A DNA stretch of 64,000 nt from Selenomonadaceae bacterium. GTDB lineage: Bacteria > Bacillota > Negativicutes > Selenomonadales > Selenomonadaceae. A program made the position numbers and the translations under genes. Shown here piece after piece: positions 26,016 through 32,692 of the stretch. Where the stretch lies: positions 1 to 64,000 of the forward strand of contig JAQYBD010000106.1 in the NCBI GenBank assembly GCA_029338835.1, written 5' to 3'. The notes under the pieces were generated by a model that saw only the letters and a list, made by a program, of their open reading frames with translations, did not search any database and had not been told where the DNA came from. The first letter of the stretch is position 1; each line of letters starts with the position of its first letter.

Positions 26016-26046
26016 TCCTTAAGGATGCAGGACAGGAGGTAATACC

Positions 26047-27024
26047 ATGGCAGTAAATTATCGTTGGGCGACGCTTGGCTGCGGTGTCATCGGGCATCAG
26101 CTGGCGGAGGCAATGCAGGAACTTGGAGGGAATCTCTATAGCGTGGGCAACCGGACGTACGAGAAAGGTCTGGCCTTTGCTGCAGAGTACGGCATTCCCA
26201 AGGTTTATCATACGCCGGAGGAAATCTTTGCCGATGATGATGTGGATATCGTCTATATCTCGACGCCGCATAACACGCATATCCAATATCTGCGCCAGGC
26301 TCTGGCTGCCGGCAAGCATGTGCTTTGCGAAAAATCCATCACACTGAATGCAAAGGAGCTGGCCGAGGCTGTGCAGCTCGCTGAGAAACACCATGTCGTG
26401 CTGGCAGAAGCACAGACCATCTATCACATGCCCATCTATCGGGTACTCAAAGAACGCATGGATAAGGGCGAGTTTGGTCCTCTGCGCCTGCTGCAGATGA
26501 ATTTCGGCAGCTACAAAGACTATAATATGAAGAACCGCTTCTTCAATCGCAGCCTGGCAGGCGGCGCCATGCTGGATATCGGTGTTTATGCACTGTCCTT
26601 TGTGCGCTGGTTCATGAGTTCGTGCCCGCATGAGATTCTTTCTCAGGTCAAGTATGCGCCGACCGGCGTCGACGAGCAGGCCAGCATCCTTTTGAAGAAT
26701 GCGCAGGAGGAGATGGCAACCGTCATCCTTTCGCTGCACGCCAAGCAGCCGAAACGCGGCACGATATCTTTCGATAAAGCATATATTGAACTTTACGAGT
26801 ATCCGCGTGGGGACAAAGCCGTCATCACCTGGACGGAAGACGGCCATAAGGAAGAAGTAACGGCAGGCAACACGGCAGCTGCGCTGACCTATGAAGTGCG
26901 TGACATGGAACAGGCCGTGCGTGGCATTGAAAATACCATGCACCTTGACTATACCATTGACGTCATGGATATCATGACGAAAATCCGTCAGGACTGGGGC
27001 ATGAAATATCCCGAAGAAGAATAA
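26047..27024 (+). CDS. Gfo/Idh/MocA family oxidoreductase
   Basis: 325 residues. An N-terminal Rossmann domain with GCGVIG near residues 12-17, the EKSI (usually EKP) cofactor loop near residue 97, and a C-terminal alpha/beta domain with GGAMLDIGVYAL holding the usual active-site Asp. Such enzymes oxidise sugars, inositols or dihydrodiols with NAD(P). The substrate cannot be inferred: no sugar pathway genes are adjacent on this strand. ATG 26047 follows CAGGAGG. It ends at a bidirectional terminator shared with the convergent nucleoside operon. Confidence 0.88.
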   Translation: MAVNYRWATLGCGVIGHQLAEAMQELGGNLYSVGNRTYEKGLAFAAEYGIPKVYHTPEEIFADDDVDIVYISTPHNTHIQYLRQALAAGKHVLCEKSITLNAKELAEAVQLAEKHHVVLAEAQTIYHMPIYRVLKERMDKGEFGPLRLLQMNFGSYKDYNMKNRFFNRSLAGGAMLDIGVYALSFVRWFMSSCPHEILSQVKYAPTGVDEQASILLKNAQEEMATVILSLHAKQPKRGTISFDKAYIELYEYPRGDKAVITWTEDGHKEEVTAGNTAAALTYEVRDMEQAVRGIENTMHLDYTIDVMDIMTKIRQDWGMKYPEEE

Positions 27025-27047
27025 TGCCGCCAGTCTGTTCCAACAGC

Positions 27048-27090
27048 AAAAAGTCCCCGCAACTCAATTTTGGGGTTGCGGGGACTTTTT
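27048..27090. terminator. Bidirectional terminator between oxidoreductase and nucleoside operon
   Basis: Perfect 16-base arms at 27048-27063 (starting AAAAAGTCCCCG) and 27075-27090 (ending GGGGACTTTTT) give a GC-rich stem with T-runs on both strands. It serves the plus-strand oxidoreductase gene and the minus-strand nucleoside hydrolase gene. Confidence 0.95.
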
Positions 27091-27098
27091 GTGTGCGA

Positions 27099-28136
27099 TC
27101 AAATATTATCGATATCTTTTTTGGCAAAGTTCGTGAACAGCATCTGAGCAAATTTTTCGCCATCCGCATTCAATGCGACTTTTGCGGTAATGGGATCTTT
27201 ACCTTTCTTGGTATTGTGTACGTCTGCGACCATGCGGCCATCACAGATCCCCCCAGAGATATCGATATCGACATTGGCGTCCACATATTCTGTGACGACA
27301 GATTCATCGATGAGATAGGCAATGGTCAGGGCATCGTGGATAGGCGCGCGGTCATTGTCGTACCGGTACAGGACGACGCTGCCAACGGTTCCCGGTGTAT
27401 GACGAAGGTCGTAGTTGTGCTGCGATACATCATTGACTTTCAGATTGTCGATACGTTTTTGCACCATGACGGATGTGAATTTTGCTGCCGGTGTTCCCAG
27501 GTCAGAAAGTTCTTTGACTTGATCTTCTGTGATGCAGGCGCGCCAGGTAGCATCGAGTGGCAGGATGACCTTGGGGATTGGCGAATCCATGACAATCTTG
27601 GCCGCCTCCGGGTCAGCGTAGAAATTGAATTCGGCTGCCGAGCTGGCATTTGCTCCCGTGTGACCACCACCCATGATGACCAGTTGTTTGATTTTATCTG
27701 CGATGCGTGGTTCGATGCGCAGGGCCATGGCAATATTGGTCAGCGGACCGACAGCCGCCACATAGATATCGCCTTCGCTCTCCATGAGCTTTTTTACCAG
27801 ATAGAAGACGGCATGTTCTGGCTGCGGCTTGATCTTTGCTTCGGGCAGCGGCAGGAAATCCCCATGACAGTCGTTGCGCGTTACTCGTGGCAGGTCTGGT
27901 TTGCGCGTTGGGATCTCGTTGCAGATAATAGGATTTTCACAGCCGCGGTAGACGGGGACTTTGGAGTTCATGAACTGTACTACACGCAGGGCATTTTCCG
28001 TTGTTTTGGGAACGATGCGGTTGCCGTTGACTGTCGTGATCGCCTGCAGATCGATCTTATCGGAAAACAGTGCGAGCAGGATGGCAACGGCATCATCGGA
28101 GCCTGGATCACAATCGAGAATCACCTTTTTTTTCAT
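27099..28136 (-). CDS. Inosine/uridine-preferring nucleoside hydrolase
   Basis: 345 residues. The N-terminal DCDPGSDDA cluster (residues 8-16) provides the calcium-binding aspartates of the family and the C-terminal APIHDAL holds a further active-site His/Asp. The enzyme cleaves ribonucleosides to base and ribose. The start at 28136 (MKKKVILDCDPG) was chosen over an ATG 21 bases upstream because AAAGGTAG precedes it at good spacing. Last gene of the minus-strand operon; the released ribose would feed the two ribokinase domains encoded upstream. Confidence 0.92.
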   Translation of the reverse strand: MKKKVILDCDPGSDDAVAILLALFSDKIDLQAITTVNGNRIVPKTTENALRVVQFMNSKVPVYRGCENPIICNEIPTRKPDLPRVTRNDCHGDFLPLPEAKIKPQPEHAVFYLVKKLMESEGDIYVAAVGPLTNIAMALRIEPRIADKIKQLVIMGGGHTGANASSAAEFNFYADPEAAKIVMDSPIPKVILPLDATWRACITEDQVKELSDLGTPAAKFTSVMVQKRIDNLKVNDVSQHNYDLRHTPGTVGSVVLYRYDNDRAPIHDALTIAYLIDESVVTEYVDANVDIDISGGICDGRMVADVHNTKKGKDPITAKVALNADGEKFAQMLFTNFAKKDIDNI

Positions 28137-28196
28137 GACACATCTACCTTTCATCAAGTAATGGAAAGAGGAATGACGGCAATGATACGGGGAGTC

Positions 28197-29573
28197 TTAC
28201 ATCGTGAATACGTAAGAAGCCGCAATATCGACGAGAAGCATAATGAACAGCAAGGGAGCTGTACGCTTGGCCAGCATGATGGGTTCAATGCCTGCCGTTC
28301 CTGCGATGGCAATCAGGGCACCGCAAACCGGTGAGGAAGCGCGCCCGATGGAAGTGGCCAGTTCCATCGGCAGCAGCAGGGTCAGCGTCGGTACGCCGAG
28401 CTTGGCTGCAATCGCTGGGGTCAGAGGCCCAAAGGCGAAGAACGGAGCAGCACCGCTGCCCATGATGATGGCAAAGCCGTAGGTGATGCCGGTGAGAACA
28501 ATCATGATGATCAGGACAGCACCCTGCATATCCGCAATCATACTGGTGAATACGGAGATGCCTCCCAGGATCTTGATGCCTTGGGCAAAGACCGAGGCGG
28601 AGATGATGATGGAAACGACTGATACAAATGCCTTGCCCATGGCCTGCAGGATGACAACCATATCGTTCGGGATGGCACTGCGATCCTGGCGGCGCAGATA
28701 TTCGATGAGGAACGTCAGAGCAAAGCCGATGAAGTTGGCACTGATGACATCAATCTTCGTGGAAGGGATGAAGTAATCAGCAAAGACGATGATCAGAGGA
28801 ACGAGCGGCAGCAGGACATAGAAAGCAGGTACATCGGGATCGTCCAGTACTTCGATGTCTTTCTTTACCGCATTGTTTTCCTGGTTGGCGGCGCGGGCGG
28901 CATCCCGTGCGTCCATATAGCGGTAATAGAAAGGAATCAGCACGGCGGTGACCAGGATGATGCAGATGGCCACTTTCCATTGGTACTGGAGGAAAAGGTC
29001 GACAACATTCATATCTGCTACCGTTGACATAAAGATCGTACTGCCGTCATTGGGACCGTAGTCCAGGCAGAGCAGCGCCAGTACCGATGCGCTGGTGATG
29101 GTGCGGATACCGAGTGCCTGCAGGACAGGAAAGACGGTTGCCAGCATCAGGACGGCCAGGCTGGCCTGGCTGGTCAGCACGAGCTTCAACGCCATGCCAA
29201 TCAGGAAAAAGACGCTGAGGATCATGTATTTATTCCTGATTCCGCCAAGTACGCGGCTGGCCATGAAAGCCAGTTTTGTCGAAGCCTGGATGTGTTTCAT
29301 ATAAGTGGCGTAGCCGGTGACGACCATGATGATGGCACCGACGCCAGCGACATTGGATTTGAATGTTTTTGTAATGAAGCCGAAAGCATCTAAGAAGACA
29401 TTGCCCAGCGTATCTTTGCCCAAGATGGGCGTGCCGGTAAGCAGGCTGGCTGACATCAGGATGATGAGTCCTGATGCGAAAAATACGAAAATGGCATTAT
29501 AACGCTTCAAGATCAGTTTTGCTACAATCACGGCAAAGATGACCGTGAGCCCGATCAACAGCCAATCGAACAT
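28197..29573 (-). CDS. DcuC-family anion/solute permease, probably for nucleosides or related solutes
   Basis: 458 residues with about twelve hydrophobic segments. The pattern (two halves, conserved GPNDGS-like loop and GRASSPVCGA near the C-terminus) matches the DcuC family of anaerobic C4-dicarboxylate carriers. Its position between ribokinase and nucleoside hydrolase genes suggests a nucleoside or ribose-related substrate instead; this is inference. The start at 29573 is supported by GGAGG eight bases upstream; an ATG at 29588 overlaps that site. It lies 32 bases after the ribokinase stop. Confidence 0.8.
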   Translation of the reverse strand: MFDWLLIGLTVIFAVIVAKLILKRYNAIFVFFASGLIILMSASLLTGTPILGKDTLGNVFLDAFGFITKTFKSNVAGVGAIIMVVTGYATYMKHIQASTKLAFMASRVLGGIRNKYMILSVFFLIGMALKLVLTSQASLAVLMLATVFPVLQALGIRTITSASVLALLCLDYGPNDGSTIFMSTVADMNVVDLFLQYQWKVAICIILVTAVLIPFYYRYMDARDAARAANQENNAVKKDIEVLDDPDVPAFYVLLPLVPLIIVFADYFIPSTKIDVISANFIGFALTFLIEYLRRQDRSAIPNDMVVILQAMGKAFVSVVSIIISASVFAQGIKILGGISVFTSMIADMQGAVLIIMIVLTGITYGFAIIMGSGAAPFFAFGPLTPAIAAKLGVPTLTLLLPMELATSIGRASSPVCGALIAIAGTAGIEPIMLAKRTAPLLFIMLLVDIAASYVFTM

Positions 29574-29605
29574 GTAAATCGCCTCCATAAATCATACGGT
29601 GTGCT

Positions 29606-30523
29606 TCATCTGGATTGAGGAGAAAACCGGCAAACTTCTTCATATGAGGGAATGGATGACTGTGCGCCTGGACGCGTCACGGCAATGGCGGCTGCCTTGG
29701 CGCCGAAGTCGATGGCTGCAGAAAAATCCTGGCCGTCGAACTGGCTGAGGAAGGATGCGAGAAAACAGTCACCAGCAGCCGTGGTGTCAACGGCTTTTAC
29801 CGGATACGCCGGGAATTCCCGTATGCCGCTGTCCTGGACGAGCAGCGTGCCTTTGCCTCCAAGTGTCACCATGACGTTCTTGACGCCCATTGCGTGGAGC
29901 TTTTTGGCAGCACTTACGATTTCTTCCCGGGTGTTTGTGGGCATCCCCGTCAAGATGGATAACTCCGTCTCGTTCGGTTTGGCAATATCGACGAGTGGAA
30001 AGAGGTCAGCCGGCAGGTCCTTGACGGCCGGAGCCGGATCCAGGATGAGGAGTTTCCCTTTCTGTCGACAGAGCTTTGCTGCCTGGCAGACAATCGGCAA
30101 AGGGATTTCCAGCTGCATGACAATTGCATCCGCCTGTTCAAAAAGGTCCAGATGATCGAGCAGCAGTGTTTCGTCCAGGTCGTGATTGGCACCGGCGATG
30201 ACAGTGATGTAATTTTGGCCCTGCTCATCGATTTCAATGAAGGCCTTGCCAGTTTCCTGGCTGGATAGGCGGATGCTGCTGGTATCCACGCCGGCTGTTT
30301 GGAGATTGTGGATCAGCATCTGGCCAAACGGGTCATCGCCAACGGCTCCAATCATCGCGGTCTTCACGTTCATCCTGGCCAGTGCATACGCCTGGTTGGC
30401 GCCCTTGCCGCCCGGAACCATCTTCATGCTTTTCCCCATGACAGTTTCTCCCGGTTCCGGCCGATGACTGGTATAGACATCGAAGTCCATATTGAGACTG
30501 CCGATGACCAATACATGATTCAT
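29606..30523 (-). CDS. rbsK: Ribokinase
   Basis: 305 residues, PfkB fold. The ribose-binding GSLNMDFDV near the N-terminus, PGGKGANQA near residue 38 and DTTAAGD near residue 245 (anion hole and catalytic Asp) are all intact. It phosphorylates ribose to ribose 5-phosphate in the cytoplasm. Starts 3 bases after the stop of the LacI-ribokinase fusion, so translation is likely coupled. This is the second kinase domain of the operon. Confidence 0.94.
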   Translation of the reverse strand: MNHVLVIGSLNMDFDVYTSHRPEPGETVMGKSMKMVPGGKGANQAYALARMNVKTAMIGAVGDDPFGQMLIHNLQTAGVDTSSIRLSSQETGKAFIEIDEQGQNYITVIAGANHDLDETLLLDHLDLFEQADAIVMQLEIPLPIVCQAAKLCRQKGKLLILDPAPAVKDLPADLFPLVDIAKPNETELSILTGMPTNTREEIVSAAKKLHAMGVKNVMVTLGGKGTLLVQDSGIREFPAYPVKAVDTTAAGDCFLASFLSQFDGQDFSAAIDFGAKAAAIAVTRPGAQSSIPSYEEVCRFSPQSR

Positions 30524-30526
30524 GAG

Positions 30527-32419
30527 CTATTCCTCCTTTTTTACAAAGCGCATCTGGATTTCTTCGCGATAGGATTCCAGCAGGCTGCGCTGGGGCAGCG
30601 AGGGCTGGACGCCTGGCCCGGCAATGCAGAGGCCGGCACTATAGGTGCCAAAGCCGATTGCCGTTTCTATGGGCAGGCCTTCGCTGAGATAAACAGCCAG
30701 AGCGCTGATGAAAGCATCGGCTCCGCCTGTGGTATCGACTGCCTGGATGTCCATGGCAGGGAAATACTGTTGTATCTCCTGATTGCAGAGCAGGCAGCCA
30801 TCGGCACCGAGGGTGATGATGACGTTCTTGACGCCGGATTGCAGGAAGTATCGTGCTTTTTCCTCCAGTGAGGAGGATCCTGGACACAGGACTTCGATTT
30901 CCCGGCGGCTGGGAAGGAGATAGGCAATCTGAGGCAGGAGTGCGGCCGGAAGATGATGGATGTTGGCCGGTTTTACGAAAACGGGGATATGCCTGTGCCG
31001 GCAAATCCGCAGGGTTTCTTCGATGGCAGGCATGGGGATCTCAGTAGACAGCAGGCAGTAATGTGCATCCGCAAAATATTTTTCCTGTGCTGTGATGTGC
31101 TTGCGGCTCAGCAGTCCATTGGCCCCAGGATAAATCACGATACTGCTTTCCCCCTTTGACGTGATATTGATGTAAGCTGTGCCGGTATCCCGGGACGCGT
31201 CGGATAAAACACCAGCCCGGTGGACGTGATTTTTTTGCAGTTCCCTGAAAATCGTCTGAGCTGCGGCATCCTTTCCCATCATGCCGATGAGATAGGTCTC
31301 TGCTCCAAGCCTTGCGGCACCCACTGCCTGGTTAGCTCCCTTGCCGCCTGGCGACTGCATGATTTTTTCTGCGGTCAGGTTTTCTCCTGTCACAGGCAGA
31401 TGGGGAAGGAAGAGATTGCAATCCATGTTGATTCCGCCGACGACAATGAGTTTTTGGCCCATCCCTTTCTGAGGCGGGGGCTGGGTACTGCCGCGCGGCA
31501 AGATCTTTATCCGCAGATCATCATCCGGCGGTGCGGCTTTTGCGTGCGCATCGAGTCGGTTAAGGATCTGGCTGCTTATCTCTGCTGCATAGAGCGGCCA
31601 ATTGATCCAGGCCGTGGTAATCCTGCTGGAGAAATCACCTGGATCCTCTTTGCTGCCGAGACAGGCCAGTGAGACATCCTGTGGTATACGCACTCCATGG
31701 CTGCGCAGCTCTTCCTGCGTAAGAGCTGCAGTCTCCCAATCCGAACAGAGGATGGCCGTGCATTCTTTCGGCAGCCAGAAGGACGGCGGTGCGTCCAGCA
31801 CTTCCGCATCAAGGACCTTTCCAGCAGGCAGCTGGGCCTCTTGCAACGCCCGCTCGTATCCTTTGGGCCAGAGCCTACTCCCGTCTTTACTGATTCCCAG
31901 GATATGACGATGGCCGAGCGAGAGGAGATAGTTTATCATGTGATAAGCGGCCTCTTCTTTGATGGAGGGCAGGGGGATCGCTGCGGGACTTTTTTGGCTT
32001 GTCGGCCAGAAAATGGGGAGACTGGAGGCTGCTGCTGTGAGCGATCGGGGTGGGTCCTTGGTCAGAGCCAGGATCGCTTCTGCATGCTGTTGCTTGATGG
32101 TATCCATGAGGTATGCTTGCGCATCCGAGGCGTAGGGCAGGACCAGCAGAGCATAGCCGCTCTTGGCAAATTCTTTTGTCAGAGCTGACAGGAAACACAT
32201 GCTGTCTGTATTGTCGATATCGGTCACGATTCCCACGATCCTGCTTTGCCGTGCGTGTTCCTGCAGGATTTCCTGGTAGGGGCGATACTGATATTTTTCG
32301 ATGATTGCCAGGACTTTTTGCCGGGTACTGTCCCGGATGCCCTTGTCCTTATGGTGAATGACTTTTGAGACAGTGGCTGGTGATACCCCGGCCATTTCGG
32401 CGATATCCCTGATGTTCAA
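30527..32419 (-). CDS. LacI-type repressor fused to a ribokinase domain
   Basis: 630 residues from TTG at 32419 with AAAGGAGGG upstream. Residues 1-50 are a LacI helix-turn-helix (MNIRDIAEMAGVSPATVSKV); about 60-310 a periplasmic-binding-protein-like sensor; 321-630 a PfkB/ribokinase domain with GGINMDCNL (328-336), PGGKGANQA (357-365) and VDTTGGADAF (561-570). The usual DTTGAGD anion hole reads DTTGGAD here, with the catalytic Asp (568) kept. No frameshift or stop separates the parts. It heads an operon of ribokinase, permease and nucleoside hydrolase and has its own palindrome-containing promoter. Likely role: ribose or nucleoside sensing repressor; whether the kinase half is active is unknown. 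Confidence 0.92.
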   Translation of the reverse strand: MNIRDIAEMAGVSPATVSKVIHHKDKGIRDSTRQKVLAIIEKYQYRPYQEILQEHARQSRIVGIVTDIDNTDSMCFLSALTKEFAKSGYALLVLPYASDAQAYLMDTIKQQHAEAILALTKDPPRSLTAAASSLPIFWPTSQKSPAAIPLPSIKEEAAYHMINYLLSLGHRHILGISKDGSRLWPKGYERALQEAQLPAGKVLDAEVLDAPPSFWLPKECTAILCSDWETAALTQEELRSHGVRIPQDVSLACLGSKEDPGDFSSRITTAWINWPLYAAEISSQILNRLDAHAKAAPPDDDLRIKILPRGSTQPPPQKGMGQKLIVVGGINMDCNLFLPHLPVTGENLTAEKIMQSPGGKGANQAVGAARLGAETYLIGMMGKDAAAQTIFRELQKNHVHRAGVLSDASRDTGTAYINITSKGESSIVIYPGANGLLSRKHITAQEKYFADAHYCLLSTEIPMPAIEETLRICRHRHIPVFVKPANIHHLPAALLPQIAYLLPSRREIEVLCPGSSSLEEKARYFLQSGVKNVIITLGADGCLLCNQEIQQYFPAMDIQAVDTTGGADAFISALAVYLSEGLPIETAIGFGTYSAGLCIAGPGVQPSLPQRSLLESYREEIQMRFVKKEE

Positions 32420-32449
32420 GGTGTTTCCCTCCTTTCTTGTTTAATTTGA

Positions 32450-32521
32450 GAAACAGTTTTCATAAAACTATTTCTTTTTAAATGATGATGTCATTGTATC
32501 GCATTTTACGCGTTTTGTCAA
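32450..32521 (-). promoter_or_regulatory. Promoter and palindromic operator of the LacI-ribokinase operon
   Basis: On the minus strand TTGACA (32521-32516) and TACAAT (32498-32493) are 17 bases apart. Downstream of the expected start point lies a 25-base palindrome: GAAACAGTTTT (32450-32460) and AAAACTATTTC (32464-32474) around CAT, with one mismatched pair. Position at about +12 to +36 suits repression by roadblock, probably by the LacI-type product of the first gene. Confidence 0.8.
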
Positions 32522-32641
32522 TTTTTTCTTATCAATCATATTTGTTTTGGCGCATTGGGACGAGAAGAATTTTCCTGTGAGTCTGGGGATGACGGTGCGC
32601 GAAACAGGTATTGCGGGAGCGATATATACTACGGGCAGCAA

Positions 32642-32675
32642 AAGGCCCCATAAACCGATTGGTTTACGGGGCCTT
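32642..32675 (-). terminator. Terminator after the biotin carboxylase gene
   Basis: Arms at 32642-32656 and 32661-32675 pair over 15 bases around GATT; the single A/C mismatch becomes a G-U pair in the minus-strand RNA, followed by CCTTTTG. It ends the minus-strand accC transcript. Confidence 0.85.
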
Positions 32676-32692
32676 GCAGAAGATTCGGGATA

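Follow-up and report, generated by a model that had tools for sequence, protein, structure and literature searches.

A LacI-type regulator fused to an altered ribokinase domain at nucleoside-salvage loci of Selenomonadaceae and Enterococcaceae

Introduction

In the textbook picture of the LacI repressor, the working parts are the ligand pocket and the hinge helix. Regulation and catalysis are combined in one chain in NadR, which contains a DNA-binding repressor together with enzymes of the pathway it controls, a kinase among them, and the ROK repressors (NagC, Mlc, XylR) sense sugar through a kinase-derived domain. In Escherichia coli YeiI (b2160; NCBIfam PRK09954), annotated only as a 'putative sugar kinase', a helix-turn-helix (HTH) is likewise joined to a PfkB kinase with an unusual anion hole (GADD; L127:1201-2289), and the gene adjoins nupX, for a nucleoside transporter, and rihB, for a ribonucleoside hydrolase. 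The gene for RbsR (E. coli b3753) adjoins rbsK, the gene for ribokinase.

Here we analyse a fused LacI-ribokinase protein encoded in a stretch of 64,000 nucleotides from a Selenomonadaceae bacterium (contig JAQYBD010000106.1; referred to as the window). The HTH and kinase families of NadR are unrelated to those of the fused protein, and NadR belongs to NAD metabolism, while the ROK proteins (a family named in PMC6240065) have another kinase fold and another HTH, and lack a LacI domain. The HTH of YeiI, about 50 residues long, is of a different type and is present without a LacI effector domain, and the YeiI kinase is only distantly related to the fused kinase in our tree; YeiI is possibly an independent case of the same idea. 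RbsR shares the LacI HTH, the effector fold and the ribose context with the fused protein, but is a separate protein with a pocket of its own (the Arg of RLEGY and the Asp of GYDD) and the hinge ALARSL, all of which are missing from the fused protein. The wider theme of regulator-enzyme fusion (NadR, ROK, YeiI) is already known; neither a LacI-ribokinase fusion nor a LacI repressor whose sensor appears to have been displaced was found described in the open-access literature that we searched, which is weak evidence of absence.

Results and Discussion

A conserved fusion at the head of a nucleoside-salvage operon

The fused protein is a real, conserved fusion of a regulator and an enzyme. One intact open reading frame of 630 codons had been predicted to encode a LacI HTH and effector domain followed by a complete PfkB domain, and both the reading of the frame and the Pfam matches agreed with this, the LacI (residues 3-47), Peripla_BP_3 (163-312; PF13377, 52.3 bits against a cutoff of 26.5) and PfkB (323-610) spans all scoring above their gathering scores. 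Within the span of 30527-32521 given originally, the open reading frame itself extends to 32419 on the minus strand, and the remainder up to 32521 takes in the promoter. A GGAGGG sequence (32427-32432) lies before the TTG start. The features of the gene and of those downstream are as follows.

30527..32419, minus strand: fused LacI-ribokinase gene, 630 aa, TTG start (open reading frame, Pfam, full-length homologues)
32279..32419, minus strand: LacI HTH, residues 1-47 (PF00356, 54 bits, cutoff 27)
31484..32239, minus strand: LacI effector-like domain, residues 61-312 (PF13377 at 163-312; the fastest-evolving part)
31463..31531, minus strand: interdomain linker, residues 297-319 (pLDDT <50 in the AlphaFold2 model)
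30530..31459, minus strand: ribokinase-like PfkB domain, residues 321-630 (PF00294, 192.8 bits; Foldseek)
30716..30736, minus strand: DTTGGAD anion-hole/catalytic motif, residues 562-568 (catalytic Asp568 kept)
29606..30523, minus strand: stand-alone ribokinase, 305 aa, motif DTTAAGD (TIGR02152, 337.6 bits, above the cutoff of 299.65)
28197..29588, minus strand: DcuC-family permease, 463 aa (PF03606, NF037994)
27099..28157, minus strand: inosine-uridine-type nucleoside hydrolase, 352 aa (PF01156, 271.8 bits)

Three bases separate the stop codon of the fused gene from the start of the stand-alone ribokinase gene, and the genes for the permease and then the nucleoside hydrolase follow downstream. 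The original proposal that the fused regulator heads a nucleoside-salvage operon is supported. A nucleoside hydrolase gene lies within the cluster at 15 of the 15 fused loci. A stand-alone ribokinase is encoded in the cluster at 14 of these loci, and at the remaining one (L123) it is found elsewhere in the genome. As every one of the 15 genomes has a separate ribokinase, the fused kinase is never the sole ribokinase of its host.

The 15 fused proteins comprise that of the window, one from another member of the Selenomonadaceae and 13 from the Enterococcaceae. The homologue in an uncultured Selenomonas metagenome-assembled genome (636 aa, 41% identity) has an identical four-gene order, and only these two of 189 Selenomonadaceae genomes carry the fused gene. 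The Enterococcaceae proteins (about 630-650 aa) were detected among 105 genomes, and the fused gene is also present on plasmid records of Enterococcus raffinosus, two of which are complete. No further fused homologues were found in samples of 398 Bacillota genomes. A contig search with the window protein alone as the query gave no match, and with two query rows nothing was matched beyond the Selenomonas homologue and proteins of the LacI part alone. Apparent additional LacI-kinase fusions, with 1-2 internal stops or as open frames of 690-700 aa, were rejected, since they proved to be adjacent gene pairs wherever the locus was read.

That an assembly or sequencing error joined two genes has a negligible probability, and nothing was found to speak for it. 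The region around residue 315, where a stop or frameshift would have betrayed such a merger, is free of any break, and GC3 is even across the joint of the LacI and kinase parts (0.62 and 0.61). A merger is ruled out by the 14 full-length fused homologues, which show 41% or about 31% identity, come from unrelated, independent assemblies and include the two complete E. raffinosus plasmid records. In phylogenetic trees the fused kinases form one clade (100/99), as do the fused LacI halves (99/99), and with both halves monophyletic the simplest reading of these trees is a single fusion event. The scattered distribution of the fused gene suggests that it has spread by transfer.

The LacI half

We aligned the 15 fused proteins with 18 separate LacI-family proteins as controls. 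The pocket Arg of the RxxG[FY] motif, which is Arg or Lys in 18/18 controls, is replaced by Trp, Phe, Leu or Ile in every fused protein (0/15), and the pocket Asp of G[FY]D, found in 17/18 controls, is likewise retained in none (Gly, Ile, Arg, Lys, Ser or Gln), with Arg or Lys at this position in 11 of the 15. The hinge-helix signature AR-x-L, kept by the controls, is absent from all 15 fused proteins, and the start of the hinge, usually YxPN in controls, is YxPY in each of them. Judged by this alignment, no copy of the LacI half retains the usual ligand-contact residues or the hinge signature. We do not claim a structural loss of the hinge helix, because the AlphaFold2 model, built from an input alignment with many canonical LacI rows, still has a weak, low-confidence helix at residues 48-58.

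Conservation, too, is lowest in the effector domain. Between the window and Selenomonas proteins, identity was 70% for the HTH and 50% for the kinase but 29% for the effector domain, and among Enterococcaceae pairs dN of the effector domain was about twice that of the kinase. Purifying selection on the effector domain nevertheless persists (dN/dS about 0.09-0.17).

The kinase half

Ribose is contacted in E. coli ribokinase by Asn14, Asp16, Gly42, Lys43, Asn46, Glu143 and Asp255 (PMC9604405), and these seven residues, which include the catalytic Asp, are identical in all 15 fused kinases. With the predicted fold as the query, the best Foldseek match was ribose-bound E. coli ribokinase (1rk2, TM 0.94). 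RbsK (1rk2/1rkd) thus shares its fold, ribose contacts and catalytic residue with the fused kinase, but has the anion hole AAGD and is a stand-alone enzyme.

The anion-hole motif holds the gamma-phosphate; in human ketohexokinase the contact of its third residue is through the backbone (PMC2651755). The original prediction had pointed to DTTGGAD in the fused kinase, as against DTTxAGD in ribokinases including the adjoining one (which has DTTAAGD), with the catalytic Asp retained, and this difference extends well beyond the window: the motif is GGAD (as in the window) or GASD in 14 of the 15 fused kinases, L124 being the only homologue with a normal GAGD, whereas every neighbouring stand-alone ribokinase has an unaltered AAGD. 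An Asn of the N187 type is kept in 14/15 fused kinases, and the window copy has Ser504 at that position. Against the TIGR02152 ribokinase equivalog model (cutoff 299.65) the fused domain scored 254.2 and failed, whereas its neighbour passed. In Enterococcaceae pairs, dN/dS was about 0.03-0.08 for the fused kinase and 0.06-0.12 for stand-alone ribokinases; by this measure selection constrains the fused kinase no less than true ribokinases. With its altered motif the fused ribokinase may be catalytically weak or inactive, although strong constraint and a kept catalytic Asp are equally consistent with an active enzyme, and with its normal GAGD motif at least the L124 kinase may be active.

Promoter and putative operator

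Two elements were recognised upstream of the fused gene.

32493..32521, minus strand: predicted sigma-70-type promoter, TTGACA-17-TACAAT, consensus-like (from sequence)
32449..32475, no strand assigned: putative operator AGAAATAGTTTTATGAAAACTGTTTCT (palindrome; a single site in the genome)

The palindrome, reported earlier at 32450-32474, is real and slightly longer, spanning 27 bp just downstream of the promoter. Pairing occurs at 11 of 12 arm positions, which was equalled in 5 of 1000 sequences obtained by dinucleotide shuffling of the promoter region. At 13 of 13 Enterococcaceae loci, the upstream interval that separates the fused gene from a divergent operon contains a match to RGAAAANRTTTTCNGAAARYGTTTTCYT with no more than 3 mismatches; the window site is laid out alike and differs at 5 positions. 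For the Selenomonas homologue no convincing operator was seen, as the best palindrome was equalled by 199 of 500 shuffles.

Almost every operator of the LacI family is an even palindrome, 16-22 bp long, with CG at its centre (PMC4052901). The putative operators described here are 27-29 bp long, of odd symmetry and centred on ATG or CGG, and lie outside that description; such longer, odd operators would fit with the absent hinge signature. In the Enterococcaceae each half by itself resembles a LacI-type or CcpA-type site. The Enterococcus operator may thus be a pair of adjacent sites of either type (GAAAACGTTTTC twice).

Proposed ribose sensing by the kinase domain and alternative explanations

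An emptied LacI pocket, a ribose pocket kept under strong selection and the presence of a second ribokinase would be accounted for most simply if the kinase served as the sensor. Since the LacI ligand-contact residues and hinge signature are lost in every copy, the kinase probably replaces the older sensor instead of being added to it. We therefore propose, giving the idea an even chance, that the fused protein is an autorepressor of the nucleoside-salvage operon in which ribose sensing has moved from the LacI pocket to the fused ribokinase domain. Without ribose, the protein would occupy the palindrome downstream of the promoter and block the operon. Ribose freed inside the cell by the nucleoside hydrolase would then bind the kinase domain, the kinase lid would close, the paired DNA-binding heads would shift and the operator would be freed, leaving metabolic phosphorylation to the separate ribokinase. 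Ribokinase closes its lid when ribose binds, and the subunits have the lid sheet in common (PMC9604405); such a shared sheet would offer a plausible signal route to the paired heads. Our inferences here concern the ligand (ribose), the direction in which it regulates, the signal (lid closure) and catalysis (weak or absent). The broader proposition, to which we would give somewhat under an even chance, is that these proteins form a LacI-type repressor family in which sensing has passed to a fused, catalytically altered ribokinase, the effector domain has become a mere connector and a long operator is bound independently of the usual hinge contacts.

The original prediction envisaged a regulator that phosphorylates, or simply binds, the sugar it senses, as a conceivable flux sensor in a single polypeptide. 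The balance tips towards binding, because the anion hole is altered in 14/15 proteins, none of the 15 genomes lacks a normal ribokinase and the N187-type Asn is missing from the window copy. A kinase added to a working LacI sensor is improbable, given the loss of the LacI pocket in 15/15. One alternative is a bifunctional trigger enzyme resembling NadR, that is, a working kinase for ribose (or a related pentose or nucleoside) whose catalytic state, and not simple binding, governs DNA binding. We regard this as rather unlikely. In its favour, the catalytic Asp and ribose contacts are retained throughout, the kinase half is under strong purifying selection, 14 of the 15 keep the N187-type Asn and L124 has a normal GAGD. 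This GAGD, together with a constraint and a kept catalytic Asp that suit an active enzyme equally well, counts against the kinase as a mere sensor, and the lack of a clear operator in Selenomonas counts against the proposed autorepressor. Speaking against the trigger enzyme are the change of the anion-hole Gly to Ala or Ser in 14/15, Ser504 in the window copy and the dedicated ribokinase in every genome.

The altered LacI pocket could instead bind another ligand, and Arg or Lys at the Asp position could hold a phosphate. The LacI half would then remain the sensor, its ligand being perhaps a phosphorylated sugar that one of the kinases produces, and the fused kinase would be a second enzyme or a source of inducer. 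Selection on the effector domain and the 11/15 proteins with Arg or Lys, as a phosphate-binding pocket might have, are in keeping with such a role; the substituted residues, however, differ between lineages, and the effector domain is less conserved than any other part of the protein, so that we consider this distinctly improbable. Very improbable, in our view, is an ordinary LacI repressor sharing its chain by chance with an ordinary, functionally uncoupled second ribokinase. LacI-type genes commonly adjoin PfkB kinase genes, and a lost stop codon would yield such a fusion, but the fusion apparently arose once and was retained over a large divergence, and both halves are altered in the same clade-wide manner.

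If the kinase domain is indeed the sensor, a LacI repressor can swap sensors through domain fusion. The protein would then be a natural design for repressors that respond via an enzyme domain, and a clean test case of a kinase becoming a sensor while still attached to an older one.

Transporters and surroundings of the fused loci

The transporter at the locus varies. It is of the DcuC family in the window, in Selenomonas and at L123 (Enterococcaceae), an ECF transporter with an MFS protein at most Enterococcaceae loci, and an APC-type permease at L125. A permease of the DcuC family (C4-dicarboxylate carriers) is thus linked to genes for a nucleoside hydrolase and a fused regulator in both Selenomonadaceae (window 28197-29588) and Enterococcaceae (L123:5859-7232), and the permease of these loci may carry nucleosides or ribose. 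In most Enterococcaceae with the fused gene, the ECF transporter (L114:8817-11878 and equivalents) is encoded in a divergent nucleoside operon. Its S component is related to the CD3073 family with a score below the cutoff, and its substrate may be a nucleoside. The cluster of the fused homologue at L124:8113-10026 encodes an additional PfkB-like kinase, an HAD-like protein and a dehydrogenase-like protein.

In the window, about 6.7 kb (26016-32692), comprising the operon and a Gfo/Idh-type gene (26047-27024), lie between a DHHA-domain gene and accC. This segment is absent from the corresponding position in both congeners searched (G001 and G002), in which the DHHA-domain gene and accC directly adjoin. 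A strong terminator-like hairpin is present at 32642-32675, between accC and the fused gene.
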